From: an uncultured delta proteobacterium
GTDB lineage: Bacteria > Desulfobacterota > Desulfobulbia > Desulfobulbales > Desulfocapsaceae
Reading direction: 5' to 3'
Length of the DNA stretch: 55,564 nucleotides
NCBI GenBank assembly: GCA_903875445.1
Contig: CAIQWD010000032.1
Span: forward strand, 1-55,564
In this document: positions 20,272 to 38,438 of the stretch, one piece after another
Numbering within the stretch: the stretch's first letter is position 1
Layout: each line of letters starts with the position of its first letter
Notes under the pieces: generated by a model
The model's database searches: none
What the model saw: only the letters and a program-made list of their open reading frames with translations
What the model was told of the DNA's origin: nothing
Program-made: the position numbers and the translations under genes

Positions 20272-22959
20272 TTAATGGCTGTACATCTCTTTTCGTCGCA
20301 GGAACGCAGCAGGCCCACCTTCTAAAATGTCCATTACGCACTGTTTGGTCGCATCTGTGTCGATCGAACCCCGGTCTTTAGTCTTTCCACAGTCGTTTTC
20401 GCGGCGCATGGGAAGGATCAGCTCGGAATCACCAAGTACGGCGATGTTAGCATTGTGGGTCACAAGAATCACCTGACGCCTCTCTTTGATTGCCCGCAAT
20501 GTAGTGACAATGCTTGAGAAGATGAATGCATTGTCAAGGTCGTCCTCGGGCTGGTCGATCACCAGTGGTACATTTGTTTCAGCCAGCATTGCAATGGTCA
20601 GAAGAATCGTGTGACGTTGCCCATCCGAAAGCTGAAATACAGGGATTTCCTTGGGCGGTGTTGACTTTGTGCGAACCGTGATGATCGGTTTCGGCTGTTT
20701 CGCAAGCGCCTGAAGCTCAAACAGAATGTTCCAAAAACGAAGCTTAGCGACGATTTTCTCGGCCCAATCGAGTGAAACGTTGGCGGCAGTGGCTATCTTC
20801 TGGCAATTGCATTCCAGAACCAAGTCAGCGAGTTCTGATGGCGTGATGCGACTGCAAACGTTCTCTATCAAATTGTCTTGCAGGTACGTTCCATGCATTT
20901 TTTCCTGCATGAACGACTCGAACTCCACCGTGATTCCAGATTCGTCGTATTTCACGAATATGGTGTAATCCTTGATTGTCCCACCAAGATTAGCGTTAAT
21001 CCCCTTGAGCTGGGTCTTTCTCCGTTTGGTCATATTCTCTCGAACTTCCTTCAAATCCGCGCGCAGCTTAGCTCGTTGCTCTTGGCATTGTTTCCGCTCG
21101 TCGGTGCGCTGCTCAACCCCAGCAATTTCCTTCGCAACTGCCGTTTTCTGGCGAAGCAATAATTCCAAACCTGGAATGTCAGTGGCTAGACCACGAGCCT
21201 TTAAATCTGCAAGTTTCGTCGCCACCTCACCACTCATACGCTGATGGCTGATTTTTAGCTCCCCAGCCAGAGCCGTCAACTCCTTGGCGCAGGACTTTAG
21301 CAAGATGTTTAATTCCACCTCTTTCTGCTTCACCGCCGCGTTATTTTTGAAGAGTGCTGCCTTGACAGCCGCCATAGTTTTATTGGAAGTCTCATCCTGC
21401 GTGCAGATGCCAGCCGTTGCAACAATCTGATCGAAGCCGCGCTGAATGCCCGATAGGGAAAATCCGTTTGTGTATTCGGTTGCAATTTCCTGGATGGATT
21501 CCCGAACTGCTTTTTCCGAAGCGAGCTTGCTCTGCGTTCCAACCACCTCGCGCAGATTTCCATCTTCAGCGACTTTCAGCTTCTTTTCAATCTCTTCCAA
21601 CGACTTCTTTTTCACGGTCAGTTGCGAGAAGGCACTTTCGAGCGGGTGCAAACGGCCCGCATTTTCGCGCAGGCTCGTCACAAGGGATTCCTCGGTTTCA
21701 AGAAGGTCACGCAGGTTAGTGTGACGGTCCAAAAACTCCTGGAATAGGTCCGGGTGGTTGAGTGGGTCCTCAGCGACTTTAGCAAGCTCACCTTGTCCGA
21801 AATACTCGATGCGAAATGCGTCGACCGGCACATCGGTGACTGATTCATCCTCCTTGGCCTTTACCTCTATGTCGCCGCCGCGCGTGCGAACATAGCGGTA
21901 TAGAATACCGTTTTCGTCCTCGCAGAACACCGTGACAGAATTAGGGCAGTTATCGTAATCTCCGAATTCGTCATTCAGGCCGAAGGCGTATGCAATTGCC
22001 CGGATCGCTGTTGATTTACCAGTTCCACGTCCACCGATAAGACAATTGAGGTTGTCACTGAAATGAATCATCTCTTCGTGGAGGAAGCCTCCAGTGATTG
22101 CTATACCGTGCAGACGTGGGATGGAGCGGGGTACCGAAGCACTGGCACGCACGCGGGCCAATGGATCGACCATTGCAACGCGTAAGGCATTGAAGCTGAG
22201 TTCGGCGAGCTTGACGCGCGTCCATGGTTTGCTCGGGTCTTGATGTTCAAACTGCTTCATTGAATGTGCGTCGGAACCCTGTACGTGGGCGAAATGGTGG
22301 CGTGCGGAGAGTTCATGCTTCAACTGACGGGCAGTAAGCATTTTTTTGCGCTCAACTCCGGCTGATCCGGCCTCATCGTGTTCGGAATACCAAAGTAAAG
22401 CATCGACCGTATCGCATTCCAAACCATAAAGGCCAGGACTGGTGATGATATCTCTTTTCCAGTTCTGGAAACCTGGGGTGAACATATCAAAACCTGTCTT
22501 TTCTCGGTCGATGTGTGCGGCAATGCAGATTCCTCCAAGTTTCTCGACCTCGGTGATCGTGTCGGCCATCGACTTGGCAGTCCGAGTGTTTTCGGCACCC
22601 ATCTCTCCGATCAGGTCGAGCCGTGACAGAAACTTCGCAAGGTCGGTGGTGCGGTCGGGTGCGAAATAGGCAAGAAGATGGCCATGGGCAGTGGTGACTT
22701 CGACGCCCAGCAGCACGAGAATTTGTCCAGTGTAATTGTCCTGGGCGTGGACAACGGCTCGTTGCACATTCACGTTTGAGTTGTGGTCAGTGATCGCAAT
22801 GACACTCAGGCCCTGCCTAACCGCTGAGTCAACGATGGCCTCAGGGGTCATCATCATATCCTTAACATCATGTGAGGCACCGTAGGAATGAATGTGTAGA
22901 TCAACGTTGTGGAACCGTGCTCCATTATCAAGTAAGCAAATGTCCTTGAATTGAACCAT
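20272..22959 (-). CDS. PHP-SMC fusion ATPase, TrlF-like
   Basis: 895 residues. The N-terminal PHP hydrolase domain has DLHIHSY (21-27), ITDHN (56-60), GVEVTT and GSDAH (228-232), the metal-binding set of PHP phosphoesterases. An SMC/Rad50-like ATPase follows: Walker A GGRGTGKST (309-317), a long coiled coil (about 410-680), signature LSDGQRH, Walker B LVIDQPEDDLDN and H-loop VTHNAN. Proteins of this type are annotated TrlF-like and occur in defence islands. The likely role is ATP-dependent sensing of nucleic acid ends coupled to phosphoester hydrolysis; this is inferred. It starts 85 bp after the Res gene and may be co-transcribed with it. GAGGAACTAGGAA precedes the ATG. Confidence 0.85.
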   Translation of the reverse strand: MVQFKDICLLDNGARFHNVDLHIHSYGASHDVKDMMMTPEAIVDSAVRQGLSVIAITDHNSNVNVQRAVVHAQDNYTGQILVLLGVEVTTAHGHLLAYFAPDRTTDLAKFLSRLDLIGEMGAENTRTAKSMADTITEVEKLGGICIAAHIDREKTGFDMFTPGFQNWKRDIITSPGLYGLECDTVDALLWYSEHDEAGSAGVERKKMLTARQLKHELSARHHFAHVQGSDAHSMKQFEHQDPSKPWTRVKLAELSFNALRVAMVDPLARVRASASVPRSIPRLHGIAITGGFLHEEMIHFSDNLNCLIGGRGTGKSTAIRAIAYAFGLNDEFGDYDNCPNSVTVFCEDENGILYRYVRTRGGDIEVKAKEDESVTDVPVDAFRIEYFGQGELAKVAEDPLNHPDLFQEFLDRHTNLRDLLETEESLVTSLRENAGRLHPLESAFSQLTVKKKSLEEIEKKLKVAEDGNLREVVGTQSKLASEKAVRESIQEIATEYTNGFSLSGIQRGFDQIVATAGICTQDETSNKTMAAVKAALFKNNAAVKQKEVELNILLKSCAKELTALAGELKISHQRMSGEVATKLADLKARGLATDIPGLELLLRQKTAVAKEIAGVEQRTDERKQCQEQRAKLRADLKEVRENMTKRRKTQLKGINANLGGTIKDYTIFVKYDESGITVEFESFMQEKMHGTYLQDNLIENVCSRITPSELADLVLECNCQKIATAANVSLDWAEKIVAKLRFWNILFELQALAKQPKPIITVRTKSTPPKEIPVFQLSDGQRHTILLTIAMLAETNVPLVIDQPEDDLDNAFIFSSIVTTLRAIKERRQVILVTHNANIAVLGDSELILPMRRENDCGKTKDRGSIDTDATKQCVMDILEGGPAAFLRRKEMYSH

Positions 22960-23044
22960 TTCCTAGTTCCTCTTATAAGCTTTGTCGGGGTATGACCGTT
23001 TGTTGTTGGGCAACAAAGATTGATATTCAGTGAAATTATTCATC

Positions 23045-26017
23045 TCAGGAATACGTCAGCACGTCCCCCAAGGATCGCGCCACAACATATCTTGCCGGGT
23101 TTCCCCCGTCCTCAATCGCTTTGAAGTGAGCCTTGCCGCAAACGATCTTTGCTTTCTCTTTATCTCGCTGAGCATCGGCGAACAAGCCGCTCTTGGTCTC
23201 AACGACGAAGTACAGCCGTTCAGCACCATCCTCTTCTACGAGCACAGCCCAGTCCGGATTGTAACCGCCAAGCGGTGTGGGTACCGAGAACCAACCGGGA
23301 AGTTTGGTGTACACTTTGACGGCGCTGTTCTTTTCAAGTTGATCGGAAAAATTTGCCTCGGGAGCGGAGTCATAGACCACCTGCTCGTAGACCGATTTTT
23401 CAGCATCGAGCAGGTTCTTGAGGTAACCTGTCAGCTCCTCTTGCTCAAAGAGTTCCTGAGCGTAGAAGTGTTCGTTGCCCAGCTTCTGATATTTGATACC
23501 GTCCACCACTGCGAGACGCTTGCAGCGATTGACGGCCTCGGCGGCCAGTTCGATAAATTGCTGGGGGTTGCGCTTGAAGTCGTCAAGCCGGAGGCTGCCC
23601 GTCAGGATGCGGTGAATTGTCCGCCGGGTCAGCTGGGTGCGATCCTGAAGGTCGGTCAGCAGATCTGGCAATTCAATATCGGTTTCATCCAGCACAACCG
23701 TTGTTGCGCCCTGTCGTTCGATGGCTTCAACGCCAGCTTTTCCGATAGCGATATCGGCTTTCCGCCATTGCAAGCGAGGCCTCGGGATGGGAGGCGCATT
23801 GCGCAGAGCATCGATGCAGCTTTCGACCAGCTTCTCGTTGTCGAAATGTACCCGGTAGGTGGTTTTGTATTTGATGCGATCCCAAAGGGCCTTGAACTCG
23901 GGACTCTGCAGGATGACCTGCCGCGTCCGTACCTGGCGGCGCTCGTTTGCGTCTTTTACCTCCAAACGACCGGCAAGTTTCTTCAATATGGCGGCGATCT
24001 GGTCATTTTGGGCCGCAAAATTTTCAGGAAGATCGAGGGTCCCATCCTTCAGTGCTTTTTTAAGGGAATCCTGCACCTTGCCTTTCTTGTCGATATACCC
24101 TTGTTCTTTCAGATGGGCGCATAATGCTTTCGATCTCTCGGAGCCAAGCGGGACAATCTTTCCATTAGGATCAACAACGGTAATACCGGCAAACTGATGG
24201 TCCTCGACGATACCGAAACGGATACCGGTGTCAGCCTCGATCTCCTTCTGCAGATTCTCAGCAAACTGCTCGTAACTTTCGGTGGCAATGACCGTCAGTG
24301 TATTGACCTCAAAGCCCCGCACGCGCTGGCCATCCTGGTTAACACAAAGGCGTAGGCCGCGACCGATGGTCTGGCGGCGCTCGCGCTCAGTGCCCATTTC
24401 CCGCAGGGCGCAAATCTGGAAGACGTTCGGATTGTCCCAACCCTCGCGCAAGGCCGAATGGGAAAAGATGAACTTCAGCGGGGTCTCGAAGGAAAGCAGT
24501 TTTTCTTTCTCCTTCATGATCAGGTTATAGGCCCGCTCGGCATTGTCCCGATTGCCCTGATTGTTCTCGGCGGTGTCGGTCCATCCCCCTTTCTTATCGA
24601 TGGAAAAATAGCCGTTGTGTACTTCTTCCGCCGTGCGTGATAGATCGACTTCCTGAAAAAGGGTCGCGTAATCCGGGTTCTTCGCTGCCCGTCGGTACTC
24701 TTCCTCGAAAATGCGGGCATACGCACCCTTGACCGGCTGGCCGTCCGCATCGTACCCGCGGTACTTGCTCACCGCATCGATGAAAAAAAGTGACAAGACC
24801 TTGATCCCCTGCAACCGCAGACGTTTCTCCTTATCCAGATGCTGTCGGATGGTTCGGCGGATCATCTCGCGTTGTATGGCCAGTTCGTCCACATCGCCCC
24901 AGGCCTGACCGGGTTTCAGAAACATCTCGCCGCCGGGCACACGCAGTTCCATGAACTCGTTACCTTTCCCGACCCGGATTTCACCGACGCGACAATCGCT
25001 GTACATCGCCCGTTTGGTGGTTTGTTCCAGATTATCGCCGTCCTGCACCGTCACTTCCCGGCGCTGCACACCAACCGCAGCCTGCATGTCCAACTCGACA
25101 CGGGCTGAAATGAGGCCCCGCTTGTTCTCGACCGTGATCAGGCGAACAAAAGGTTTGTTAAAAGCATCCTCAACTGTCGCCGAATCCACCTCGATCTGCT
25201 TGACCAGCCGTTTTTCGTATGCGTCCACCGCATCAAGCCGGTAGACCATGTGATGTTTATCCGCATGGGTGGCGGAATAGCGCAGGGTGCACAGGGGATC
25301 CATGGCGTTCAATGCGGTCTTGCCGGCGCCGGAAAGACCGCCGTCGACACTCTGGGGCTCATCGACAATGACGATGGGCCGGGTCGCCCGAATCAGATCG
25401 ATGGGCTTCTCGCCGCCGGTCTTCTCGCTGTCCTTGTAGAGATTATTGACATCTTTTTTGTTGATGGCGCCGACCGTCACCACCATGACCTGGACCTGCG
25501 AGCTGGTCGCAAAGTTGCGGACCTGACCGAGCTTTAAGGAATCGTAGATGAAGAAATCGAAGGGTACCCCGGCATACAGTCCCTTGAAATGCTCCTCGGT
25601 GATCTGCAACGACTTGTATACACCCTCTTTGATCGCCACCGAGGGCACGACGATGACGAATTTGCAGAAACCATAGCGTTTATTCAGCTCGAAGATCGTC
25701 CGCAGATAGACATAGGTTTTTCCCGTGCCGGTCTCCATTTCGACGGTGAAGTCGCCCGAGGCCAGGGAATCGGATGGCGGCAAGCCATTGCGCAGCTGGA
25801 TATCGCTCAGGTTTTTCAGCAACTCATCATCGAGCAAGGTCAGCCGGTTGCCGATGCCAAGATCGTTTTCCATCCCCGGTAGATAGACGGCAGCTCCCAG
25901 GGCGCTTTTGGTCACCGTGAATTCCGTCCGGCATATTTCCTGGCCGCGGAACAGGTCGCACACCGCCTCAATGGCGGCCATCTGGTAATCAAGGTTTGGT
26001 TCAAAATGCAGTTTCAT
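23045..26017 (-). CDS. res: Type III restriction enzyme Res subunit
   Basis: 990 residues. N-terminal superfamily II helicase/translocase with Walker A GTGKT (97-101) in METGTGKTYVYLR, the DEPQ box in IVIVDEPQSVDGG, and QTIGRGLRL as motif VI. The C-terminal PD-(D/E)xK nuclease reads NPDWAVL, then VVETKSG. This is the restriction subunit that translocates and cuts with Mod. It is on the same strand as the methylase but separated from it by the Schlafen-like gene and a 251-bp gap, so it may have its own promoter. Its last ~40 codons recur in degenerate form at 40293-40405. Confidence 0.92.
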   Translation of the reverse strand: MKLHFEPNLDYQMAAIEAVCDLFRGQEICRTEFTVTKSALGAAVYLPGMENDLGIGNRLTLLDDELLKNLSDIQLRNGLPPSDSLASGDFTVEMETGTGKTYVYLRTIFELNKRYGFCKFVIVVPSVAIKEGVYKSLQITEEHFKGLYAGVPFDFFIYDSLKLGQVRNFATSSQVQVMVVTVGAINKKDVNNLYKDSEKTGGEKPIDLIRATRPIVIVDEPQSVDGGLSGAGKTALNAMDPLCTLRYSATHADKHHMVYRLDAVDAYEKRLVKQIEVDSATVEDAFNKPFVRLITVENKRGLISARVELDMQAAVGVQRREVTVQDGDNLEQTTKRAMYSDCRVGEIRVGKGNEFMELRVPGGEMFLKPGQAWGDVDELAIQREMIRRTIRQHLDKEKRLRLQGIKVLSLFFIDAVSKYRGYDADGQPVKGAYARIFEEEYRRAAKNPDYATLFQEVDLSRTAEEVHNGYFSIDKKGGWTDTAENNQGNRDNAERAYNLIMKEKEKLLSFETPLKFIFSHSALREGWDNPNVFQICALREMGTERERRQTIGRGLRLCVNQDGQRVRGFEVNTLTVIATESYEQFAENLQKEIEADTGIRFGIVEDHQFAGITVVDPNGKIVPLGSERSKALCAHLKEQGYIDKKGKVQDSLKKALKDGTLDLPENFAAQNDQIAAILKKLAGRLEVKDANERRQVRTRQVILQSPEFKALWDRIKYKTTYRVHFDNEKLVESCIDALRNAPPIPRPRLQWRKADIAIGKAGVEAIERQGATTVVLDETDIELPDLLTDLQDRTQLTRRTIHRILTGSLRLDDFKRNPQQFIELAAEAVNRCKRLAVVDGIKYQKLGNEHFYAQELFEQEELTGYLKNLLDAEKSVYEQVVYDSAPEANFSDQLEKNSAVKVYTKLPGWFSVPTPLGGYNPDWAVLVEEDGAERLYFVVETKSGLFADAQRDKEKAKIVCGKAHFKAIEDGGNPARYVVARSLGDVLTYS

Positions 26018-26268: not shown

Positions 26269-27987
26269 CTACTGGTTATCTCCAAGAATCCAGATCGGTG
26301 TTGCTCTTGACCCCGCATTGCGGATAAATCCGGCACGGCGAAGGGCTTGCAGCAGATTTCTCACCTTGTGTTCCTTCTGCTCCTCTGTGAGCACCTCGGG
26401 AAGTTTGGGAAAGAGCAGCTCATCCAGTTCGTTGCGACTGGCTTTTGAATATTTCTGGAGATACTCGGTGATCAAGCGCCGATAATAGTCGTCATCCAGC
26501 CCCCGGTTGCGGATGTAGTGCGCCTTCTGTTCGGTCCATTCCGCCACCTTTGCCGAGATGTAATAATTAGGCGCACGACCCTCTATCAGCTTTTCGGCCT
26601 TGAGCCATTTAGATGCTGCCGAAGTGATTTTCCGGTGTTTCTGCACTTGGTCGAGGAGGACCACTTGCGAAAGATTCAAGTCGCGTCGTTTCATCAGGAT
26701 CTGCGTATACTTTACGTCCAAAATCCGGCCATGAATGGCCACCTCGATTCTCGGTTTAACGGAGGTATCGGCGTCGATGAGGTAATCGGGCATAGGAAAG
26801 AACCGTTCCCTCTGGGTCTCGAACATCCTGCGGATACCGCTGCCCTGCTGGTCAATCATACGCAGCCGGATCATGCCGTCGATCAGCCATTGATTGCGAT
26901 AATGCTCCGGTGGGGATTGATGTTCCAGCATCCACTGAACACTGGGCGGGAGAAAAACACCCAGATTGGTAAAAACCAGCCGGTCCGGATGCTCGACCAC
27001 ATTGATTTTGCCGCCCATGCGATAGTCCTGATGGGCGATGCAGTTATGCAAGGCCTCACGGATAACCCAGGAATCGTATTGCGATACTGGAACAGGAAAG
27101 AGCGTACCATCCGGCATGTATTCCATGGAGACATTGCGGATGCATTTGAACAATCTCTCCGAGGCCAATAGCAGCGGCATGCTGAAATGCTGACCGCCAA
27201 CAACCCGGTTCTGTTCGTCACGCAGATTCCAGCTGATTTTTGTGTCCGCCGGGGCCAGGAAATGCGAGGCCTCGTCACGACCGAGCAGCAGAAGAGCGGA
27301 GCGGGTCAAACGTCCTTGCTTGGTCACATGCGCCTTGTTCAGGAGGGTGGCCACATCCCACGCCAGGGCTTCTGCCCGGATTTTCTCATGACGGCCGGTG
27401 TCCGGTTCGGTTTTTATCAGGTATTCGAGAAATTTGTTACGGGCGAAATCGACCGCCTCCGGATCAAGATCGTCAAAGGTGGCCTCGGGGACAATTTCTC
27501 CAGTCCAGTCTTCGATGCCGCCCAGCATCTCCCAAATCCGTGCCTCCTTGTCGGGATGTTCGGCTAATCTGGTGGTATGACTGTCGATGCGAATATAGCG
27601 ATCCCCTTTGAAAGCAAGAGGTGCAGACCTGGGTGGATGGATCTCCAGCATGACCACCTTGCCATCCGGATGCGCGACCTCATGGAACTGGAAATCCGGA
27701 CGCGGCTTGGTCTTTTGGGTCAGCCACATAACCAGCGACTGTTTGCCCTCGCCCTTGCTGGTAAAGGGATTGAAGGAAGTACCCTTTACGGCATGGGTTG
27801 TGTTATCTACCCCCCAGAGCAGCCAGGCCCGATCATGCCGTTCGAGGATAGCGGCATTGGCCATGGCCGAGAGATATTTGCCGATGTCGTCGGCAAAATT
27901 CCAGCTTGATTTGAACTCGATCGTAGCCTCCTCGCGTGGCAGGCTGCGGAATTGCTCAAGCAGGTGGAGTAAAACGCTGTTGTCCAT
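26269..27987 (-). CDS. Schlafen AlbA_2 / HATPase_c_4 protein
   Basis: 572 residues. The N-terminal AlbA_2 (Schlafen) domain (REEATIEFKSSW, WLLWGVDN, GDRYIRIDSHTTRLAEHP) is followed by a HATPase_c_4-type domain (IREALHNCIAHQDYRMGGKINVVEHPDRLVFTNLG) and C-terminal winged-helix segments. Such proteins are often annotated as ATP-binding transcriptional regulators or RecG-like. In this operon, between mod and res with a 13-bp gap from mod, it may act as a regulator or an effector of the restriction system. AlbA_2 domains in Schlafen proteins can be nucleases; whether this one is cannot be told by reading. Confidence 0.85.
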   Translation of the reverse strand: MDNSVLLHLLEQFRSLPREEATIEFKSSWNFADDIGKYLSAMANAAILERHDRAWLLWGVDNTTHAVKGTSFNPFTSKGEGKQSLVMWLTQKTKPRPDFQFHEVAHPDGKVVMLEIHPPRSAPLAFKGDRYIRIDSHTTRLAEHPDKEARIWEMLGGIEDWTGEIVPEATFDDLDPEAVDFARNKFLEYLIKTEPDTGRHEKIRAEALAWDVATLLNKAHVTKQGRLTRSALLLLGRDEASHFLAPADTKISWNLRDEQNRVVGGQHFSMPLLLASERLFKCIRNVSMEYMPDGTLFPVPVSQYDSWVIREALHNCIAHQDYRMGGKINVVEHPDRLVFTNLGVFLPPSVQWMLEHQSPPEHYRNQWLIDGMIRLRMIDQQGSGIRRMFETQRERFFPMPDYLIDADTSVKPRIEVAIHGRILDVKYTQILMKRRDLNLSQVVLLDQVQKHRKITSAASKWLKAEKLIEGRAPNYYISAKVAEWTEQKAHYIRNRGLDDDYYRRLITEYLQKYSKASRNELDELLFPKLPEVLTEEQKEHKVRNLLQALRRAGFIRNAGSRATPIWILGDNQ

Positions 27988-28000
27988 TCCCCAGCCTCCC

Positions 28001-30088
28001 CTACAAACTGCGGACGTTGCTCAGTCCGTGCTGGTTAAGAATGGCATCGAGGTTGGTCTTGGCGACATCGTCGGCAAAAGCACTGTCTCGAAACACGCAG
28101 GTAGAATCACCGGCCGGGGCAAGCTTCTTGCGCCAGGCGACGAGCCCCAAGGCCAGGGGTTCGACCTCGTCGCGGGTGATCTGCCCGGCCAGGCAGGTGA
28201 GCAGCACGCCGCCGCCGATGGCATGGACGGTTTTTCCGGCGATGAGGCGTTGTTTGATAGGCACGCAGAGGTCGAGACCGAGTTTCAGCAGCAGCTCGTA
28301 GAGGAGGTCCGCCTCCGTGCGGCCGGGTTTTATATGTTCTATTGAGTCGAAGAGAGTTTTTTCCAGGTTATCGCGGTCCGGCTCCCAAGCGCGGATGTTG
28401 CTGGAGTCGAGTTTGAAGACGCGGAAACCGGCGTCTCCATGGAATAGTGGATTTTTGTTTTTAATCTTTTTTCCAGCGCGACGGAGACGTTCTTTTGTTA
28501 ATTCAGCGATAGTTCGTGGCTTGCCGAGTTGGTCGCAAAATCCTGCTGCCACCTTCTGGCCCTTTTGGGTAGACGCTAGGGGTTCTGGCAACTGTACAAG
28601 AATGAACCGTCGCTGCCCGCCATTACGAGCGTTCAGTTCCAATATCGAATGCCCAGTGGTGCCACTGCCAGCAAAAAAATCCAACACAATTGCTGATGGG
28701 TCCCCACCAGTCGTATAGTCAATCAGCCTTGCAATCTCTTCATGGTCTTTAGGATTGTCAAAAATCTTTGAACCAAACATTTTTCTCATGTACTTAACTG
28801 AAACCTGAGATTGCTTGTAAAAATATGACCCACGTACTTGTGTGGCTAATTCATCATCTTCTTGATTGTCTATTTCACTTTCCGAATCGTCATCATTAGG
28901 CTCAAAAGTTCCCTCAATTTCAAATTCAATAGGGCGAATATGTGACTTTCTGATTGGTGGTTCTCTGTGGTCTTTACGAAACTCAACAACTCCGAGATCA
29001 ATCATTTGTTGCATTGTTTCTAATTTTGAGAATACCCACCCTCTCTCAGGTACTGCACAAGGTTTTTTAGTCTGTGGGTGTACAACGTCGTAAATAGGCC
29101 CACCACCTCCCGGCCAAGAGATATTGTCATCTCTCCATGGCCCATGTTTATCAATATGTTTGTAACGACTCCATTTTTTAGATGGATGGGACTTGGGCAA
29201 TTGAGAATACCAAATCTGCAAATCTGTTTCGATTGCCTTGTCATCTTCATCATATTGAGTTCTTAATTCCAGATATTTTTGCCAAATCTCCCGAGCACCA
29301 GGTTTTTCCTCACGCCACTTAGTTTTATTTTCTTTAAGGTAAGCTAAGGACTGCGCATAGACTAATAAATATTCATGGCCCACAGAGAAGAGCTTGGCAT
29401 CATTCTTCCGGCCTTTTTCCCAAACAAGTCGGGCAATAAAGTTCTCAGAGCCGAATATTTCGTCGCAAAGCATAGTAAGGTTCGCGACCTCTTGATCGTC
29501 GATGCTGATGAGGATAACTCCATCGCGTCGCAGCATATTTTTTGCATTTTTCAAACGCGGCAGCATCATATTCAGCCAGTCGGTATGAAACCGGCCGCTG
29601 GCCTCGGTATTGCTGGTCATCTTCTGCCCGCCTTCCACTTGGCCGGTCAGTTCCAGATAATTCCTGATATTGTCCTGAAAATTGTCGGGATAGACGAAAT
29701 CCTTGCCGGTGTTATAGGGTGGATCGATGTAGATGAGTTTGACCTTGCCCGCATAAGATTTTTGCAGGAGTTTGAGAACTTCGAGGTTATCGCCCTCGAT
29801 CATCAAATTTTGCGTGGTTGCCCAATCGACGCTTTCTTCCGGGCAGGGCCGCAGGGTGCCGGTAGACGGAGTGAGCGCCATCTGTCGGGCGCGACGTTTG
29901 CCATGCCAGTTGAGACCGTACTTCTCCTCGCGTTCCTCCAATACCCCGCCGAGCAATTGTTTAAGCACCTCAAAGTCGATCTTCCCCTCAACCACAGCCT
30001 CGGGGAAAAGGGTTTTCACCTGTTCGACATTTTCGGCCACTATATCGGCAGAGGCGGTTTCAGGGTCTTGAGCGATTATTTTTTGCAT
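28001..30088 (-). CDS. mod: Type III-like N6-adenine DNA methyltransferase (Mod)
   Basis: 695 residues. Motif IV DPPYNTG (122-128) comes before motif I DFFAGSGTTG (471-480), the beta-class order of N6-adenine and type III Mod enzymes. The region between (about 190-470) should include the target recognition domain; it has a very acidic stretch (DDDSESEIDNQEDDE). It would methylate one strand of a short site and direct Res. The ATG at 30088 is chosen because GGAG lies upstream; an in-frame TTG at 30100 is less likely. It lies 33 bp after the RecD-like gene. Confidence 0.92.
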   Translation of the reverse strand: MQKIIAQDPETASADIVAENVEQVKTLFPEAVVEGKIDFEVLKQLLGGVLEEREEKYGLNWHGKRRARQMALTPSTGTLRPCPEESVDWATTQNLMIEGDNLEVLKLLQKSYAGKVKLIYIDPPYNTGKDFVYPDNFQDNIRNYLELTGQVEGGQKMTSNTEASGRFHTDWLNMMLPRLKNAKNMLRRDGVILISIDDQEVANLTMLCDEIFGSENFIARLVWEKGRKNDAKLFSVGHEYLLVYAQSLAYLKENKTKWREEKPGAREIWQKYLELRTQYDEDDKAIETDLQIWYSQLPKSHPSKKWSRYKHIDKHGPWRDDNISWPGGGGPIYDVVHPQTKKPCAVPERGWVFSKLETMQQMIDLGVVEFRKDHREPPIRKSHIRPIEFEIEGTFEPNDDDSESEIDNQEDDELATQVRGSYFYKQSQVSVKYMRKMFGSKIFDNPKDHEEIARLIDYTTGGDPSAIVLDFFAGSGTTGHSILELNARNGGQRRFILVQLPEPLASTQKGQKVAAGFCDQLGKPRTIAELTKERLRRAGKKIKNKNPLFHGDAGFRVFKLDSSNIRAWEPDRDNLEKTLFDSIEHIKPGRTEADLLYELLLKLGLDLCVPIKQRLIAGKTVHAIGGGVLLTCLAGQITRDEVEPLALGLVAWRKKLAPAGDSTCVFRDSAFADDVAKTNLDAILNQHGLSNVRSL

Positions 30089-30121
30089 CAATAACTCCAA
30101 ACTACTGGGTTTGTATCAGGT

Positions 30122-33100
30122 CTATCCGTTCAAGTGCTTTTGGATTAGTTGTTGAACGGCAGAAAAATCGAAACCGTTAGCACTTGATTCCGTAGAGGTC
30201 ACAAGTGTGCCATGTGGACCACCACCTTCTTCAGCCGGTAGGATACCATTGGTTCGATACCAGGAAAGTTTGGCTTCCCAACTACGACGGTAGTCTTCTC
30301 TTTCCAATAAACCAAGGTGTTCCCAGTATATATTCCGCCCGGATATTTCATCCTCGATGGTGAAATCAGGGTAGCGGGTCCTGCCATTCAGGGTCAAGGC
30401 TTGCTCGTACTCGGGTAGATATCCCGCATGGCGAAGCTCCTCATAAATCAAGAGTTCTGATTTGGATCTAACGGCAATTCCGGTACTTGTGCGGTGGGTT
30501 AGGCCATCCTGCAGGAAGATACTCCCTTTTTGCTGGGGAAATTCCATCATACGGCATGGTTTCAAAAGATTGGTCATACGACGGGCGGTTTCTGAACGGT
30601 GCGGGGCGGCAAATTCCTTCAGTAGCGTGCGCGGTCCCTGGTGCATGACCACCACACGATCCTGATGGCGGGTGAGCGCCGTATATATAAGCTCACGTGA
30701 CAGAATCGGATGGCCTTCAGGCAACACAAGAACCACTAGCTTGAACTGGCTTCCTTGCGCTTTGTGGACCGTCAGAGCATAGGCAAGCTCAAGGGAAGCA
30801 TCACCTTCTTCTCTAAAGTCATTACCATAAAAATCGTAAGTAAAACCTTGTTGTGACGAGAATTCAACCTTGAGAATTTTGGGGTTGCCTCGGCTCTTCC
30901 ATTGACCCACAGCAATGCCGATTTCACCATTTGCTAGGTAGCCGAGGGCTCCCTCCTGCGGATATACCCGTTTACCATCTCGGCGATGGTTACCAAGGTT
31001 GATAACCTTATCACCGTAAACAATCCGTTCTGCTCCAAATGGTTTCGGAATGGAACGCGATCGAGCTGTTGCTAGTTGGAGAAATCCGGATCGGAAACGC
31101 TCATGAATCTGACGATTAATGTCGCAAACACCGAAGGGCATCCCGCGCAGGGGACTGAGAATCTGCCATGCCTCAACAGAAGCCACTGAACCGCTTTGTC
31201 CTTTACGGGTTGCATTGAAGTAATCGTAGTCGCCACTGACAGTCGCACCGAGCTCCCGGTTAAAACCTCTATGATCATCGGGTCCAGCAAGTTTTAATTC
31301 GTCTTTCAGGACATGGATCAACTTCTGTTGAAAATCTTCGGCCTTCTGCCACTCAACAAACCGTATCGTCTTGTGTTCATCAGTCCCGGCAAAAAAAACA
31401 TCGTCCTCACCAGCGGAAGGTGGCGTAGCGCTAAACCATCGTGCCAGCCGCAGGTCTGGTCGCTCCTTACCCACCTGTCGCCGCTCAATTGTGAGCTCGG
31501 TGTAACCGGGTGCAATCCGCGGGAAACGGGTTTCATAATCATCCGGCCGCAACTTGGCGATGATGTCCACAAATGGACGCCCAGCGCCAATGGGTGGTAA
31601 CTGGGCAGGATCGCCCACCAAAATAAAGCGTTTCACTCCCTGCAGGGCATCGAATAATGCACCAAGCATATCTTCGGTGAGCATGGAGGACTCGTCCACA
31701 ATAACCGTACCAAAGCCTGTTGCCTTTGGCCGCTTGCTCATAACGTACCGCCCTGAAGAAGTGTCGTAGCGACCGTGCTGATTGAGGAATTGGGCTATAG
31801 TCAGAGCCTTAGCTCCATCGCCTCCCGCCAATTCCTGCATGCGGACCCGAGCTTTTCCGGTAGGAGCCAGCAGAAGCAATCCTTCATCCCGAATCTCTGG
31901 CTGTTCACAGAGAATGCCAAGTACCGTTGTTTTTCCGGCTCCAGCCGGACCAGCCAAAACGCTGAAACGTGCCTCTGCAAGTTCTTTTAACGCCGCAACC
32001 TTCTCTGTACGTGCTCTCTTTTCTTCAAGGTCTGTGGTACCTCCAAATTTACTATCCACTAATGCCGACCAATTGGCGGTAAGGGTATGACGCTGGCCCG
32101 CAACACGTCCATTAATTTGTTTACGCACCAATTCGGCGATGGTGTTGTAGCGCTGAAGCTGGACGGCAACATCATCTTCAAAGGAAGTTGACACAATTTC
32201 GGGCATCATGTCGGCAATGCGTGCAGAAAGGATATCACCCGTGATGGGGCAGGGAGGGCGAACAGGGAAGCTACTGACAGTGTCAACCACCTTATTTTTA
32301 GAAATCAAGGTGTGACCCGCCAAAGCTGCTTCTTCGAGGGAGGCAATAGTAAAGGCTCGCAGGCGACGTAGATCGACCGCTGAATCAAGACGCGATGGCG
32401 GCTCCAGAGGATGTTGCAAGCGCACAGTATCCTCTGGGAAAACGCCGCGATCCACAGTCAGAAGCCGAATTCCATCTCGATTATGTCTGCTGAGTTCATA
32501 AAAAAGATATGGGTTGTGCAGAATTGCCTTATCTGTACCATCTAAGCCAGCTTTGTGTCGTGATCCTTCTTCGTAAAAATTCTTTGCCTGATCAGTTGTC
32601 AATTCAAAGCGACTGAGCAGACGCAGAAACATTCGGCGTTCTGAAGGTAATTTTTTCCAGATTGGTGCCAGTTCTTTGAAATCTCGATGAAGTTCTTTCG
32701 GTAGCACTGATTTCACTTCAGCAAAAGCCTTGTCAGCTAAAGGCCAGGGATCAACATTTTCGCCCGCTTTCTGTTGAAGGGCGTGCGCCACAAATATGCC
32801 TCGCGAGAGACCAAATGCTGCCAGGACAGCACCAAGCCCAGGGAACGGCCCGCGTACTTTCCATAAACGTACCAGTTCGTCATGTAACCACTGCCGTTGC
32901 CAACTGGTAACAATACCCTGTTCTGTCTCCATTCGACTGAGAGCAACATCCATAGAGAGAAGCGCGGCAATAGCGCCATCGTGGGTAACCAGTTCGCTGG
33001 CGTAGGAGAACTCGTTCCAATGCTCATCTTGGACTTTGGCGGTATAGCGGGCAAAATCCACCGCTGCATCTTGCTCAACGAGATGCAGCATCTGATGGTA

Positions 33101-33817
33101 TGGCATAAGGAATCCATCTTTGCCTTTGGGACGGATCGAATGTTGTATGGGCCGCTCCCAAATCATACCCCTCATGCCCATCCCATTGCGATGATACTCC
33201 GTAATGGAACCAATGTCCTTAATGCGTCCGGCACCAATCAAGATACGTCCGGTTCCTTCAGCAAACGGCACATGTTTGGCATAGAAAAGACAAAGAGAAT
33301 TCTCTGGTCGCAGATGACCGGCAAATGCATCCAGCAATTCCTTCTGGTTTTGGCCTTCGTGTATCCAGTTGGTATCATAATTAAGTGCCGGTTCCCGTTC
33401 GTCGTCAACGTCAAGATCAAAGAGTTCGCTGAAGCTCTCCATGTTTTTGTGCATCATCCAGAAAAACGGGACTACACCGGCCGAGTAAGGAGGAAATCGC
33501 AAAGGAGTCGATTGAAAATGGCCATAGATTTTTGTGTCTACTTTTGCCAAGGCATGGTTTTTGGAAAATTCTATTTCGAAAGGAGCCATAAATGCGGCTC
33601 GCTCCTCAATACAACAAGGCCATTGTTCATGTGGTAGTTCATCTAAGCTGCGGCCAGCAATAGGAATCTCTAAATCGTCTTTCTTATGACCAGCAATACC
33701 CTTGAGTTTTGCACAAGCTCCATTCAACTGAGGTGCTTGGCATACCGCTCCATTCCACCCGGTATCGTGCCAGGGTACCCGGATAGAGAGGTGACGAAGT
33801 GGAAATTTGCTGTCCAT
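30122..33817 (-). CDS. Giant RecD-like helicase with PD-(D/E)xK nuclease tail
   Basis: 1231 residues. Residues 1-600 have no domain I recognise. A superfamily I RecD-type helicase follows: Walker A GPAGAGKTT (623-631), Walker B VIVDESSM (705-712), GDPAQLPP (735-742), LTVHKAQGSQF (1015-1025) and YTALTR (1045-1050). The C-terminus has a PD-(D/E)xK-like nuclease: RSKSELLIYEEL (1117-1128), YPDFTI (1149-1154), YWEHLG (1164-1169) and a downstream Lys in EAKLSWY. It would unwind and cut DNA and is probably a core effector of the defence operon. It lies 12 bp after the DUF4391 gene. GGAGAAACC precedes the start. Confidence 0.82.
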   Translation of the reverse strand: MDSKFPLRHLSIRVPWHDTGWNGAVCQAPQLNGACAKLKGIAGHKKDDLEIPIAGRSLDELPHEQWPCCIEERAAFMAPFEIEFSKNHALAKVDTKIYGHFQSTPLRFPPYSAGVVPFFWMMHKNMESFSELFDLDVDDEREPALNYDTNWIHEGQNQKELLDAFAGHLRPENSLCLFYAKHVPFAEGTGRILIGAGRIKDIGSITEYHRNGMGMRGMIWERPIQHSIRPKGKDGFLMPYHQMLHLVEQDAAVDFARYTAKVQDEHWNEFSYASELVTHDGAIAALLSMDVALSRMETEQGIVTSWQRQWLHDELVRLWKVRGPFPGLGAVLAAFGLSRGIFVAHALQQKAGENVDPWPLADKAFAEVKSVLPKELHRDFKELAPIWKKLPSERRMFLRLLSRFELTTDQAKNFYEEGSRHKAGLDGTDKAILHNPYLFYELSRHNRDGIRLLTVDRGVFPEDTVRLQHPLEPPSRLDSAVDLRRLRAFTIASLEEAALAGHTLISKNKVVDTVSSFPVRPPCPITGDILSARIADMMPEIVSTSFEDDVAVQLQRYNTIAELVRKQINGRVAGQRHTLTANWSALVDSKFGGTTDLEEKRARTEKVAALKELAEARFSVLAGPAGAGKTTVLGILCEQPEIRDEGLLLLAPTGKARVRMQELAGGDGAKALTIAQFLNQHGRYDTSSGRYVMSKRPKATGFGTVIVDESSMLTEDMLGALFDALQGVKRFILVGDPAQLPPIGAGRPFVDIIAKLRPDDYETRFPRIAPGYTELTIERRQVGKERPDLRLARWFSATPPSAGEDDVFFAGTDEHKTIRFVEWQKAEDFQQKLIHVLKDELKLAGPDDHRGFNRELGATVSGDYDYFNATRKGQSGSVASVEAWQILSPLRGMPFGVCDINRQIHERFRSGFLQLATARSRSIPKPFGAERIVYGDKVINLGNHRRDGKRVYPQEGALGYLANGEIGIAVGQWKSRGNPKILKVEFSSQQGFTYDFYGNDFREEGDASLELAYALTVHKAQGSQFKLVVLVLPEGHPILSRELIYTALTRHQDRVVVMHQGPRTLLKEFAAPHRSETARRMTNLLKPCRMMEFPQQKGSIFLQDGLTHRTSTGIAVRSKSELLIYEELRHAGYLPEYEQALTLNGRTRYPDFTIEDEISGRNIYWEHLGLLEREDYRRSWEAKLSWYRTNGILPAEEGGGPHGTLVTSTESSANGFDFSAVQQLIQKHLNG

Positions 33818-33829
33818 GGTTTCTCCGTA

Positions 33830-34588
33830 CTAAAGTTTCGTTCGGACCGCAGCTTGCGCGGCTTCCAGGCGTTTGACTTCCAGATTCAGTTCCACCTGCC
33901 GGGCTATCTGTCTTTCCTTGGCAGCAGCAATCCGTAACTGGATGATTGCACTATCCAGCCGGTTGTATTCACTTAGAGCCTCGTGCTGCTGGGCTGCCTG
34001 TTGTTGGTCATCGGCGGGCCGCAAATTCCCTGTGATCCTGGCAATCTGTAGCGCCAGCAAGGTATCGATCCACCCTTGGTAAAGCGCATGGAGCGTGGCG
34101 GTCGGTTGTCGGCCAAGGGATAAAGCAGCACGAAACGCCGGCCAGTAGGCTCCGTCCCGTCCGGCATCCCACAGGGCGGAAAGAACCTCGCCATCGAGGA
34201 CCGTCTTGCCTGCCTCGTTCTGCGCCCAACGCTTATGGGCAACTGACAGATCGATCCGGGTGTTCTGTTCGGTCAAGAGCAGCATTGGATAGGGAACGGC
34301 CCGATGCACCAGCTCAACCAGTCGCGCCGTTTTGGCCCCAACCCGGAGTGTAAGACGCAGGACAACAATTTCCAGGTACTCTCGAATGTCATCCCGATAT
34401 TCGGAAATGCCGATGGTAGTCGGTTTAAGGGTCGCCAGCCACAACAAATCCTCAATGCCTTCGTTGATCTGGCGTTTGTCGGCGGCTGTCGGTGCACCGT
34501 TTTCAAGAAGCAGTTTTTTGGGAATACGCTGATCAACACGACAGGTGGTGGGCAGGTTAAGGGCGGCAAGAAAGGATTCGGCATTCAT
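33830..34588 (-). CDS. DUF4391 protein
   Basis: 252 residues with the DUF4391 pattern: IPKKLLLENGAPTAADKRQINEGIEDLLWLATLKPTT near the start, RLVELVHRAVPYPMLLL in the middle and a helical Gln/Ala-rich C-terminal third (about 190-252) with coiled-coil character. DUF4391 genes commonly sit beside SNF2-like helicases and methylases in restriction-like operons; the function is unknown. It overlaps the upstream helicase gene by 4 nt (ATGA), so the two are probably made in fixed ratio and may form a complex. Confidence 0.8.
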   Translation of the reverse strand: MNAESFLAALNLPTTCRVDQRIPKKLLLENGAPTAADKRQINEGIEDLLWLATLKPTTIGISEYRDDIREYLEIVVLRLTLRVGAKTARLVELVHRAVPYPMLLLTEQNTRIDLSVAHKRWAQNEAGKTVLDGEVLSALWDAGRDGAYWPAFRAALSLGRQPTATLHALYQGWIDTLLALQIARITGNLRPADDQQQAAQQHEALSEYNRLDSAIIQLRIAAAKERQIARQVELNLEVKRLEAAQAAVRTKL

Positions 34589-37500
34589 TGCTCCGCTCCG
34601 GGAAGAACTACCAGGAAGGCGAGCACTTCAAAATCGTTGATACCGGCAAACTCGCCCTTCATGGCATGGGTGCCACCGGGAATAAAAAGACTGGCTAAGG
34701 CGCGCTCCTCGCTCTTGCCGACAATGGAGGCCACGGCGGCGGCGAGCAGCCGTTGTGCGGCCAGCATATCCTCGCCCTGTCTGGTATCCTTGTCGAAACG
34801 GGCGCAGGCGTCGGCATCGGGCAGGTCTCGCCCCAGACAAAGACGTTTGATCCGGTCGAGGATGTGCTTGGCCTGGGTGTAGGGGAGAAATACCGGCCCC
34901 TTCTCACCCACATAGACAAGATAGTGTGCTCCGAGAGGATAGCCCGCATCCGGGATACGTTCAGTGGCGGCACCCTCGGCTCGCAGGCAAAAGATGATGC
35001 CCGGCGGCGTCTCAACTTCGAGGGTGGAAGTGACTGCGCATGTTCCAAGCGGCAGATTTTCCAGGACGTTTGGATGGGCTTTAATATACTCGGCAAGGTC
35101 GATACGGAAATCGGTAAGCGTCAAATCGGTAATGGAGACGCCGGAGGAGAGATCCTCAAGGTCGATGACCGTATCCTGAAGTTTCAGGAGCTGGCGACGG
35201 CGATATTCCAGATCGTTCATCTGATTGCCGGCCTGCTGCTCGATCAGGTTTTCCTCGCCGGTGGCTGAGATATCGAGGAGAACCATCTTGCCGCTGACCC
35301 TTTGTTCGAGGTTGATATACTCCTCAAGCTCCATATTGGGCCAAAAATTGACGAGCTGAATACAAGTGTTGGGCGAGCCGATGCGGTCAATACGGCCGAA
35401 ACGTTGGATGATCCGCACCGGATTCCAATGGATGTCGTAGTTGACCAGCCAGTCGCAGTCTTGCAGGTTCTGACCTTCCGAGATGCAGTCGGTGGCGATG
35501 AGCAAATCCAATTCGCCTTCGCTGTTCAGTTCCTCCGGCCGCTCCTTTGACCGTGGTGAGAAGGCGGAAAGAATCGAGGCCAGATCTTTACGCAGTCCAG
35601 GCAAGGTGGTCTGATTGCGGCCTGTGCCGGTAACCAGAGCGGTATCAATGCCAATTGCCGACTTGGCCCATGGGGCGATCTGCTCGTAGAGATAAAGGGC
35701 AGTATCGGCAAAGGCGGTGAAAACAATGATCTTGCGGTTGCCCGGATTAATCGGCCTGGTGCATTTTCGCTCAATCACTTGGCAGAGCGCGGCCAGCTTG
35801 GCGTCACGGGCAGCACCGACCTGGGCGGCCGCCGCGTGGAGGGTTGCCAGACGGTTGCGGTCCTCAATGAGATCTTGCCGCCAACGAACCAGGTCGACGT
35901 CCTTGAGCAACACCTTAACCTTACGGCCGACGAGTAGACTCTCGAAGGCGGGATCGTCAAGATCGACATCCTCGATTTCAATTTCCTCCACTTCCTCGAC
36001 GTGGTTTTCGATGCGAGCAAGCATCGCTTCTACATCCCGCAATTGTCGCTGAACCGTAAGGGCAAAAGACGATACCGAGCTTTCCATGCGTTTCAGCACA
36101 TTGACCCGGAGGAGATGGATCAGGCTCTCCTCACGGTCAACCTGGCGAAAGAACCCCTCGCCGCCGCGAATTTCGGTGCTATACTTCCTGTCATAGGCCT
36201 CCTGTTTGTGCGGCAATACATACCGGAGCGGTGCATAGGAAGCGAGGTTGAGCCGGCGGATTTCCCGATTGATCTCGCGAATCGAGCGGAACTCACCGGT
36301 AAGGTCAACATCCGCTTTGATGTTGATTGGTCTCAGTCTGTCTGGGAAACGTCCGGTTTCGGCGATACCGTAGTATTTTTCGATATGCTTGCGCGAGCGG
36401 GCTATGGTGAGAAGGTCGAGCAGGGTGAAATAGTCGAATCCCAGCATCTCGATGAGTCGCGTCGGAGTACGCTCGCTTTCAACCAGATCGAGCCAGCGAT
36501 TAAACTGCTTTTGCGCCAGACGCGTGGTGCTGTCGATGCTGCCGATACCGTGATCCAGCAGGGCTGTGTCGTTGCCCTCGGTGGCAAAGGCGATTTGGTT
36601 ACGCAGGTCGGCCAGACGATTATTGACCGGAGTGGCCGAGAGCATGAGCACCCGGGTTTTCACCCCTTCCTTGATGATTTTGCGCATCAGGCGGTCATAT
36701 CGGGTCTCGCTGCCTTGCCTGGGGGTTTTCTTGTTGCGGAAGTTGTGCGATTCATCAATGACGATAAGGTCATAGTTGCCCCAATTGACGTGGGTGAGAT
36801 CGATGTCGCCGGACAACCCACCATCTCGGGAAAGGTCGGTGTGATTGAGGACATCGTAGTTGAAACGATCGGGCGCCAGGAAGTTGCGGCGATCATTGGC
36901 TTTGTACAGCGTCCAGTTGTCGCGGAGGCGTTTGGGGCAGAGCACCAGAACTCTGTCGTTACGCAGTTCATGATATTTGATAATCGCCAGCGCTTCGAAG
37001 GTCTTGCCAAGGCCCACACTGTCGGCAATGATACACCCCCCGAACCGGTTCAGCTTGTCGATTGCCCCAACCACCCCGTCACGTTGGAATTTATAGAGTT
37101 TCTTCCAAACTATGGTGTTGCGAATGCCGGTGGCCGATTTGACAATCCGGTCTTCGTCGAGATCCTCGCCACTGGCACTGAAGAGATGGTGAAGAATGAG
37201 GGTGTAGACGCTGAACGGGTCTCGTTGGGCGGCATAGGCTTGCAGAGAGTCGATCAACTCGGATTTGACGTTGATATCTGTTGCAAGGGTGGACCAATGC
37301 AGATCAAACCATTGGCTGAGCAGCAAAGCCTCTTGTTCTGTTTCGGAAGCCTGGATCAGGTTTAATGGATTGCCGGGAGTTAAACCCAGACCATCGGTAC
37401 TGAAAGCCAGCGAGCCGAGCAAAGCCTGAGTGGGCTTTGATTCACCATCTCGAACCACGAAGGCGCCCTGCGGGACCGGACCAAGGGCACGTTTCACCTC

Positions 37501-37782
37501 GGTCTTATTGTGAATCCATTGCATGAGGCGACCCGCGAGCCACCTGTTTTGCAAACGATTGCGCATGGAGCGATCGGCATCTGATCCCAGTACTGCAAGG
37601 TTCCCTGTGGCAGGTGGCAGGAGAAGACGGCATTGCGCTATTTTATTGATTTCGCGTTGAACCTCGGCAAACGCAAAAAGCGAGAAAGCAGGCGTCACGA
37701 CATCAAGCAGGTTTCCCTGCACGAGTGTGGGACGAATGAGGTCAATAACGCGATTGGATCCTGTGTTGCCGACAAGTTTCAT
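34585..37782 (-). CDS. SNF2/RapA-like superfamily II helicase
   Basis: 1065 residues. Walker A DSVGLGKT (254-261), DEAH-type box VIDESHN (about 341-347), SATPVNNR motif III and, in the second half, IIVFTAFADTALYLY, ATDCISEGQNLQ and QRFGRIDRIGSPN. This is the HepA/RapA/SNF2 arrangement of a double-strand DNA translocase. It is the first gene of the defence operon. The ATG at 37782 is preferred; an in-frame TTG at 37824 lacks a clear ribosome binding site. DISARM also uses a SNF2-like helicase (drmD), but the partner genes here differ. Confidence 0.87.
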   Translation of the reverse strand: MKLVGNTGSNRVIDLIRPTLVQGNLLDVVTPAFSLFAFAEVQREINKIAQCRLLLPPATGNLAVLGSDADRSMRNRLQNRWLAGRLMQWIHNKTEVKRALGPVPQGAFVVRDGESKPTQALLGSLAFSTDGLGLTPGNPLNLIQASETEQEALLLSQWFDLHWSTLATDINVKSELIDSLQAYAAQRDPFSVYTLILHHLFSASGEDLDEDRIVKSATGIRNTIVWKKLYKFQRDGVVGAIDKLNRFGGCIIADSVGLGKTFEALAIIKYHELRNDRVLVLCPKRLRDNWTLYKANDRRNFLAPDRFNYDVLNHTDLSRDGGLSGDIDLTHVNWGNYDLIVIDESHNFRNKKTPRQGSETRYDRLMRKIIKEGVKTRVLMLSATPVNNRLADLRNQIAFATEGNDTALLDHGIGSIDSTTRLAQKQFNRWLDLVESERTPTRLIEMLGFDYFTLLDLLTIARSRKHIEKYYGIAETGRFPDRLRPINIKADVDLTGEFRSIREINREIRRLNLASYAPLRYVLPHKQEAYDRKYSTEIRGGEGFFRQVDREESLIHLLRVNVLKRMESSVSSFALTVQRQLRDVEAMLARIENHVEEVEEIEIEDVDLDDPAFESLLVGRKVKVLLKDVDLVRWRQDLIEDRNRLATLHAAAAQVGAARDAKLAALCQVIERKCTRPINPGNRKIIVFTAFADTALYLYEQIAPWAKSAIGIDTALVTGTGRNQTTLPGLRKDLASILSAFSPRSKERPEELNSEGELDLLIATDCISEGQNLQDCDWLVNYDIHWNPVRIIQRFGRIDRIGSPNTCIQLVNFWPNMELEEYINLEQRVSGKMVLLDISATGEENLIEQQAGNQMNDLEYRRRQLLKLQDTVIDLEDLSSGVSITDLTLTDFRIDLAEYIKAHPNVLENLPLGTCAVTSTLEVETPPGIIFCLRAEGAATERIPDAGYPLGAHYLVYVGEKGPVFLPYTQAKHILDRIKRLCLGRDLPDADACARFDKDTRQGEDMLAAQRLLAAAVASIVGKSEERALASLFIPGGTHAMKGEFAGINDFEVLAFLVVLPGAEQ

Positions 37783-38425: not shown

Positions 38426-38438
38426 TCAATACCCCTAT

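Follow-up and report, generated by a model that had tools for sequence, protein, structure and literature searches.

A SNF2-DUF4391-Mod-Res gene set as the likely conserved core of a seven-gene defence-like locus in an uncultured Desulfocapsaceae bacterium

Type III enzymes of restriction-modification are Mod-Res machines, with the composition Mod2Res1 in the case of EcoP15I (PMC4490356). With EcoP15I and EcoP1I of phage P1, the locus described here shares adjacent Mod and Res genes, a methylase with a variable middle and a Res that combines helicase and endonuclease; it lies at 20272-37782 of contig CAIQWD010000032.1 (assembly GCA_903875445.1), a 55,564-nucleotide stretch from an uncultured delta proteobacterium of the Desulfocapsaceae that is referred to as a whole as the window. 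Mod and Res of P1 match the profiles of the core genes with 312 and 337 bits; what distinguishes the locus from these enzymes is the addition of two conserved genes, encoding a SNF2-family protein and a DUF4391 protein, and of inner slots with changing genes. No match to the window-type SNF2 was found at E<=1e-10 in the P1 and full P7 records. From sequence comparison, the conserved unit is best read as a widespread four-gene core of SNF2, DUF4391, type III Mod and type III Res.

SNF2 helicases also accompany DNA methylases in other systems. DISARM class 1 combines the SNF2 helicase DrmD with an adenine methylase, and DISARM is marked by DrmA/DrmB with DUF1998 and by the PLD nuclease DrmC. The last of these is also described in PMC12458937. 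The window resembles DISARM class 1 in that a SNF2 helicase adjoins a DNA methylase, and the DISARM likeness drawn in the original prediction holds as far as SNF2 homology goes; however, the window protein reaches 370.8 bits for the PADLOC model C3a139 ('HKD+Snf2') against 128.6 for DrmD, and a type III Res is present. A Pfam scan covering 18 of the window's proteins found no DUF1998, and the only window protein matched by the DrmA model (81.5 bits) is the SNF2 protein itself. BREX and BREX-related systems are marked by a PglZ or DUF499 ATPase together with a PglX-type methylase. BREX-related (BR) type 2 systems contain an HKD+SNF2 helicase and an N6-methylase, and Schlafen-type RNases with a histidine-kinase-like part are widespread auxiliaries of BREX and related systems (PMC12839542). 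Helicase, methylase and an auxiliary of this type recur in the window, but its SNF2 protein is without HKD residues, and Mod-Res takes the place of DUF499 and DUF3780; neither of these, nor PglZ, was detected among the same 18 proteins.

SWI2/SNF2 proteins translocate on double-stranded DNA without unwinding it, and a methylase-SNF2 dyad has been likened to type III enzymes (PMC5512222). In such polyvalent dyads, as in MhgA of Bacteroidales elements (PMC8102008), methylase and SNF2 are carried by mobile elements as domains of one protein, whereas the window has them as separate genes, together with DUF4391 and a type III Res. In a Cronobacter element, a SNF2 helicase is listed with type III genes but not joined to them as a system (PMC12757443). 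A search of the open literature, which left supplements and most subscription journals outside, found no description of the core as one system, nor is there one in the portions consulted of PMC12839542, PMC12458937, PMC10853773, PMC5704250, PMC2292703, PMC11090510, PMC8102008, PMC7251935, PMC5512222 and PMC12707154. Parts of the locus are already catalogued, as PADLOC C3a139, PDC-S68 and type III models, and DUF4391 is named in plasmid annotations.

Scanning GTDB genome contigs with a SNF2 alignment yielded at least 580 relatives, the best 80 loci of which were analysed; because SNF2 was the query, the neighbouring genes lay outside it. Each locus covers no more than 10 kb to either side, and the presence of a gene was scored where enough sequence is available downstream of SNF2 (at least 1 kb for DUF4391, 6 kb for Mod and 9.5 kb for Res). 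DUF4391 is thus present in 69/70 loci, Mod in 60/60 and Res in 48/50, in the order SNF2-DUF4391-Mod-Res across the loci listed. All four genes stand together in 59 of the 80 other loci, a recurrence that exceeds chance, and many of the remaining loci are truncated at contig ends. SNF2 and DUF4391 overlap by 4 nucleotides (nt) in 40 of 75 loci and are spaced between -10 and +20 in 69 of them, counted from the nearest in-frame start. Record titles of the 80 loci name Pseudomonadota, Chlorobi, Bacillota, Planctomycetes, Verrucomicrobia, Nitrospinota and Caldilineaceae, among others. The helicase-DUF4391-methylase-Res operon named in the original prediction is real and widespread, both in these loci and on plasmids, and the contention that the locus is more than plain Mod-Res is supported as well.

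Fourteen plasmid records contain a DUF4391 relative, and in the 11 that were fetched SNF2 (11/11), Mod (11/11) and Res, whole or partial (11/11), are found with it; an archaeal plasmid host of a DUF4391 locus is Methanomethylovorans. In a survey for DUF4391 and TrlF of 297 genomes of the window's phylum, DUF4391 has 11 matches at E<=0.001 and 7 over the cut-off (window's own included), and SNF2 adjoins all 7 of the latter. Moreover, Erysipelothrix phage phi1605 (L195, 3111-11991), one of five phage records with a relative of the window SNF2, holds all four core genes. A distant four-gene version occurs in Escherichia coli, which makes the system testable in laboratory strains: a single Citrobacter query has matches in 10 of 5426 complete genomes, spanning at least 80% of its length in 9, and 10 of the 11 matching places are on plasmids. 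The E. coli (L148, pHNAH968, NZ_CP104619) and Citrobacter (L020) plasmids that carry the core also have RepA and exonuclease genes, with dnaE in addition in L148, and may resemble phage-plasmids.

Judged by their sequences, Mod and Res have the features of type III restriction-modification, namely N6/N4-type amino-methyltransferase motifs and a variable region in Mod, a Res helicase and endonuclease, and Mod-Res adjacency. In their activity, enzymes of this type cut in an ATP-dependent manner at two unmethylated sites in head-to-head orientation and methylate a single strand of a short asymmetric site. DPPY is found in 56/56 Mod open reading frames (ORFs) of more than 550 amino acids (aa), and the Res patterns PDW and E[TL]K are each found in 51/52 ORFs of more than 900 aa. 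Across 48 relatives, identity to the window Mod is 78-84% at residues 61-150 and 2-24% at 241-450, where residues 271-300 and 391-420 are 83% gapped, as expected for a target-recognition region. Mod precedes Res in the complete cores, either directly or with intervening genes, such as the AlbA_2 gene of the window. It is this combination of a hypervariable Mod middle with a retained Res nuclease motif that leads us to interpret the core as a type III restriction system to which SNF2-DUF4391 has been added as a motor module.

The SNF2 protein has kept its motor motifs, with the Walker A pattern DS[VI]GLGKT and the DESH motif each present in 78 of 79 ORFs of more than 950 aa. A related SNF2 protein in locus L055 has a PLD-like domain (PLDc_2, 31.1 bits) to which the N-terminus of the window type can be aligned; where L055 reads HAK the window type has QGA, so that the nuclease is most likely dead and the protein should move DNA or proteins rather than cut. 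A pattern for intact HKD matched 3 of 78 N-termini, which are provisionally taken as chance matches. An AlphaFold2 model of DUF4391 calculated from 70 sequences has a predicted local distance difference test score (pLDDT) of 96.2 and a predicted template-modelling score of 0.90 (pLDDT 93.0 for the N-terminal domain alone), and neither the whole model nor this domain has a match in the PDB at E<=0.001. Assignment to a known fold was rejected on this result; recurrent weak matches to Imp4/pre-ribosome chains, with template-modelling scores of about 0.1-0.2, provide no evidence for one. Within the same 70 sequences P99 is invariant and P13, K24, Y71, E73, P101, R120 and Y170 are nearly so. PADLOC models give no match to the protein, and the open literature searched contributed one table row without a function. 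DUF4391 is annotated as a chemotaxis protein in phi1605 (6374-7087) and in Vibrio alginolyticus AP026557 (H10), perhaps because of its helical end.

SNF2 and DUF4391 are co-inherited with Mod and Res. In 48 intact sets plus the window, protein distances are correlated at 0.92 for SNF2-DUF4391, 0.86 for Mod-Res and 0.80-0.84 for the remaining pairs, permuted distances peaking at 0.31 (300 permutations per pair). Mean identity to the window is 0.63 for both SNF2 and Res.

The intervals between the core genes serve as slots whose occupants differ among loci. Of the 59 complete cores, 29 contain one or more additional ORFs of at least 120 aa; 33 such ORFs fall in the Mod-Res interval, 11 in the DUF4391-Mod interval and 8 in the SNF2-DUF4391 interval. 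Pfam scans of 58 inner or abutting ORFs identified GmrSD_N (6), DUF1016_N (5), Fic (4), RhuM (3), SLFN_AlbA_2, BRO and PLDc_2 (2 each), and DarT, S_4TM and AAA_13 (1 each); when inner ORFs were scanned singly, 16 of 20 received a Pfam name. Five relatives of the window's AlbA_2/HATPase gene were found, three of which sit in the same position, flanked by Mod and Res within a core that includes SNF2 and DUF4391 (L112, L197 and L198). In a fourth case, about 65 bp separate the end of the gene from a following Res match (H107, H85), and the 21 kb read for the fifth (L200) contain no core gene.

The other two extra genes are rarely found near the core. The RecD-like family occurs near it in 2 of 80 SNF2 loci, about 8 kb upstream in L089 and as a short piece in L139, and TrlF in one, downstream of Res in L097; the profiles of both were built from one or two sequences, so that distant members in the 80 loci could escape. 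Seven plasmid records match the RecD-like gene, and in the four that were read (the gene being split in one) no core gene adjoins it, unlike in the window, where this PDC-S68 member lies inside the operon. A PDC-S68 search of 395 genomes gave matches in 298 of them, mostly to ordinary RecD-type helicases; of these, three non-window relatives, one of them partial, were examined. The C-terminal motif, which we read from the sequence as a putative nuclease, is retained in L150 and L151. In L055 a partial RecD-like gene precedes the PLD-SNF2 protein, and L053 (8476-18727, minus strand) holds a three-gene cluster of a HEPN_Swt1-SNF2 protein, a Sacsin-domain protein and a PDC-S68 RecD-like gene, possibly a separate defence system.

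TrlF carries in the window the PHP-type His/Asp motifs DLHIHS, ITDHN and GSDAH and the Walker A motif GGRGTGKST. The family is known from the temperature restricting locus trlR-trlF-trlG of Photorhabdus, whose trlG mutants escape the growth limit at raised temperature (PMC7554251); TrlG has the same two Pfam domains, AlbA_2 and HATPase_c_4, as the window protein at 26269-27987, but trlF and trlG are adjacent there, whereas the window has Res between the two genes. TrlF exceeds its cut-off in 19 of the 297 genomes, window's own included. Ten ORFs of 381-426 aa that neighbour TrlF were selected from 20 regions, representing these 19 genomes and one match that narrowly missed the cut-off, and 10/10 contain AlbA_2 and HATPase_c_4. 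The window's AlbA_2 protein is longer than these TrlF partners and weakly like them (18.6 bits at best). In two genomes of one genus (L184, 3539-12375; L186, 4244-12612), a type III locus has the order Mod-TrlF-AlbA_2-Res, of which the window's TrlF and AlbA_2 genes may be a rearranged or separately assembled version. On one TrlF plasmid that was read, TrlF lies near BREX genes.

Considered together, the core is probably a type III restriction system with a SNF2-DUF4391 module acting as second motor and adaptor, to which the AlbA_2, RecD-like and TrlF proteins would add extra defences that vary among copies; that its overall logic is restriction is most likely. By family, Mod would methylate adenine in a short sequence of host DNA and Mod-Res would cut DNA with unmethylated sites. 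Less certainly, SNF2-DUF4391 would be a second double-strand DNA motor with its adaptor, which might dock on Mod-Res or act on the same DNA and clear bound proteins or join complexes, with faster cutting or less need for head-to-head site pairs as the result. Both the effect of the pair on cutting and contact among the four proteins are predictions from sequence. The AlbA_2/HATPase protein in the Mod-Res slot may be a back-up growth-arrest effector, which the Schlafen-type auxiliaries of BREX (PMC12839542) support, and the RecD-like helicase-nuclease and TrlF would be further separable defences in or next to the operon. A bolder proposal, which we hold tentatively and rate below an even chance, is that an ancient type III subtype exists with SNF2 and DUF4391 as genuine subunits three and four, spread over many bacterial phyla and one archaeal plasmid, in which the motor, through a new-fold DUF4391 adaptor, would alter the cutting rule of Mod-Res, while the operon slots would form a docking frame for guard effectors, for instance of Schlafen type, that sense restriction failure.

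Several observations weigh against an obligate role of the added module. Mod-Res pairs of the same clade occur without SNF2 and DUF4391 in L143 and in the phage record L194, the latter having no SNF2 match, and neither gene is found in the 3.5-4.2 kb upstream of Mod-Res in L184 and L186; L147 retains a DUF4391 remnant only. For some Mod-Res pairs the module is thus dispensable. Within the 80 loci, DUF4391 is missing from L090, for which 1.4 kb is available, and no Res exceeds the threshold in L094 and L109. In L144 (3838-12976) and L145 (5044-12991) the operon is SNF2-Mod-Res, its SNF2 being of another, shorter kind and DUF4391 not being annotated, so that more than one form of SNF2 helicase has become associated with type III systems. 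In a tree of 42 Res rows, which include 24 of the 48 intact sets, these two form one branch, and SNF2-less Res proteins are interspersed among SNF2-bearing ones at several points (for example L143 next to L120, with support 100/97), a pattern compatible with an association that is old and was later lost in places; the label 'with core' requires 5 changes, L147 being counted as core, and the root is unsure because P1 Res lies on a very long branch. Shared descent adds to the distance correlations and by itself also produces such correlation. Moreover, all members of the SNF2 query came from DUF4391 loci and the best 80 of at least 580 relatives were taken, so that close relatives are favoured; many of these loci come from metagenome bins and could bear incorrect organism names, and 4 of the 20 inner ORFs scanned singly have no Pfam match.

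Such exceptions are what one would expect if the locus were plain type III restriction, with SNF2 and DUF4391 regulatory or hitch-hiking outside it; in the same direction point the P1 and P7 records, which have no SNF2 match at the threshold given above. Classic Mod-Res enzymes, too, function without such partners. We nevertheless think this unlikely, as the pair is present almost constantly and in fixed order across phyla, diverges in correlation with Mod and Res, and includes a SNF2 protein as conserved as Res. Alternatively, SNF2-DUF4391 could serve for surveillance or abortive defence, watching over the restriction core and responding when that core is blocked, an idea consistent with the other likely guards in the same operons and with the pair's correlation being the highest of all; no toxic domain was recognised in it, however, its N-terminal nuclease domain is degenerate, and it is nearly fixed whereas other guards vary, which leaves this account with a small probability.

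The original prediction had seen in the seven genes one multi-step system, in keeping with their tight one-direction packing and with the recurrence of AlbA_2 in its slot. On co-occurrence the seven-gene unit was rejected: alongside mod/res, the helicase and DUF4391 recur as predicted and AlbA_2 occasionally (the three relatives in the exact slot), but the RecD-like gene does not, it and TrlF having the scarcity near SNF2 loci described above and both occurring elsewhere without the core, so that a seven-part system is very improbable. Least credible of all is that the locus derives from the DISARM or BREX-related systems and has borrowed its Res. DrmD and BrxH are relatives of the SNF2 helicase, and BR type 2 likewise combines HKD+SNF2 with a methylase (PMC12839542), but the four domains sought by Pfam (PglZ, DUF499, DUF3780 and DUF1998) are absent from the 18 window proteins that were scanned and type III models are the best for both Mod and Res; membership in either group was rejected on these Pfam and PADLOC results. 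The system is real and widespread but narrower than first claimed, with four genes instead of seven, and its conservation goes beyond what was expected. To a specialist, the near-constancy of the SNF2-DUF4391 pair and the unrecognised fold should come as a surprise: a conserved relative of Mod-Res with a SNF2 motor and such a protein would reveal an additional means by which restriction is powered or gated, and the changing inner genes amount to a natural experiment in the recruitment of back-up defences by restriction systems.

Gene identities in the window are listed in the table below; all seven minus-strand ORFs are open, without internal stops, and spaced as originally described, and Pfam, NCBIfam and PADLOC confirmed their naming.

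Genes of the locus at 20272-37782 of the window
Role	Coordinates	Strand	Product
core gene 1	34585..37782	-	SNF2-family helicase/translocase, 1065 aa, degenerate PLD-like N-terminal domain (HKD residues lost)
core gene 2	33830..34588	-	DUF4391 protein, 252 aa; alpha/beta domain and long C-terminal helical hairpin
passenger	30122..33817	-	RecD-like superfamily 1 (SF1) helicase, C-terminal PD-(D/E)XK-like motif; PADLOC candidate PDC-S68
core gene 3	28001..30100	-	type III Mod, DNA methyltransferase; hypervariable middle (residues about 240-450)
slot occupant	26269..27987	-	AlbA_2 (Schlafen-type) and HATPase_c_4 protein, 572 aa
core gene 4	23045..26017	-	type III Res, helicase and C-terminal endonuclease domain
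passenger	20272..22959	-	TrlF-family PHP phosphoesterase and SMC-like ATPase

By coordinates, SNF2 and DUF4391 overlap by 4 nt, and the following gaps measure 12 bp (DUF4391 to RecD-like), 21 bp (RecD-like to Mod with a TTG start, or 33 bp with an in-frame ATG further in), 13 bp (Mod to AlbA_2), 251 bp (AlbA_2 to Res) and 85 bp (Res to the PHP-ATPase gene). For SNF2, a TTG at 37824 was called first, and the ATG at 37782 agrees with the N-termini of relatives. Pfam gave 235.8 bits for DUF4391 (PF14335), 63.7 for SLFN_AlbA_2 and 50.1 for HATPase_c_4, 100.1 for N6_N4_Mtase, 39.1 for ResIII and 118 for RE_endonuc in Res, and 31.6 for PHP and 46.8 for AAA_21 in the PHP-ATPase protein, which NCBIfam assigns to TrlF (NF045780, 437.3 bits at a cut-off of 350). 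PADLOC recognised the RecD-like protein as PDC-S68 over its full length (1501.3 bits), Mod as MTase_III (736.9) and Res as REase_III (1333.8).

The surroundings of the locus resemble a conjugative element, and the original placement of the locus between traC and traI holds in broad terms: TrbE/VirB4-type, TrbI and coupling proteins, a topoisomerase and an ArdC-N/Toprim protein lie on one side, and a Mrr-like nuclease, AbiEi/AbiEii and a TraI-like relaxase (43507-45660) on the other. Upstream of SNF2, at about 38200-38850 on the minus strand, are short broken frames, which may represent the final part of a helix-turn-helix antitoxin and the first part of a protein of Abi_2 type. The further defence genes at 39338-42211 (minus strand) comprise a nuclease with Mrr_cat, a zinc ribbon and a hydrophobic N-terminus, read as a membrane anchor, and the AbiEi/AbiEii pair, which scores 371 and 369 bits. 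Farther on, 48270-53976 (plus strand) contains a 1066-aa HerA-like DUF87 ATPase with weak mad8 and HerA matches, downstream of a 446-aa protein for which Pfam and PADLOC gave no match. Near the restriction operon, the gene at 16235-19381 (plus strand) encodes an ArdC-N anti-restriction domain together with a zincin-like peptidase, DUF5710 and a primase-like Toprim domain, so that the element holds both restriction and a likely anti-restriction protein.

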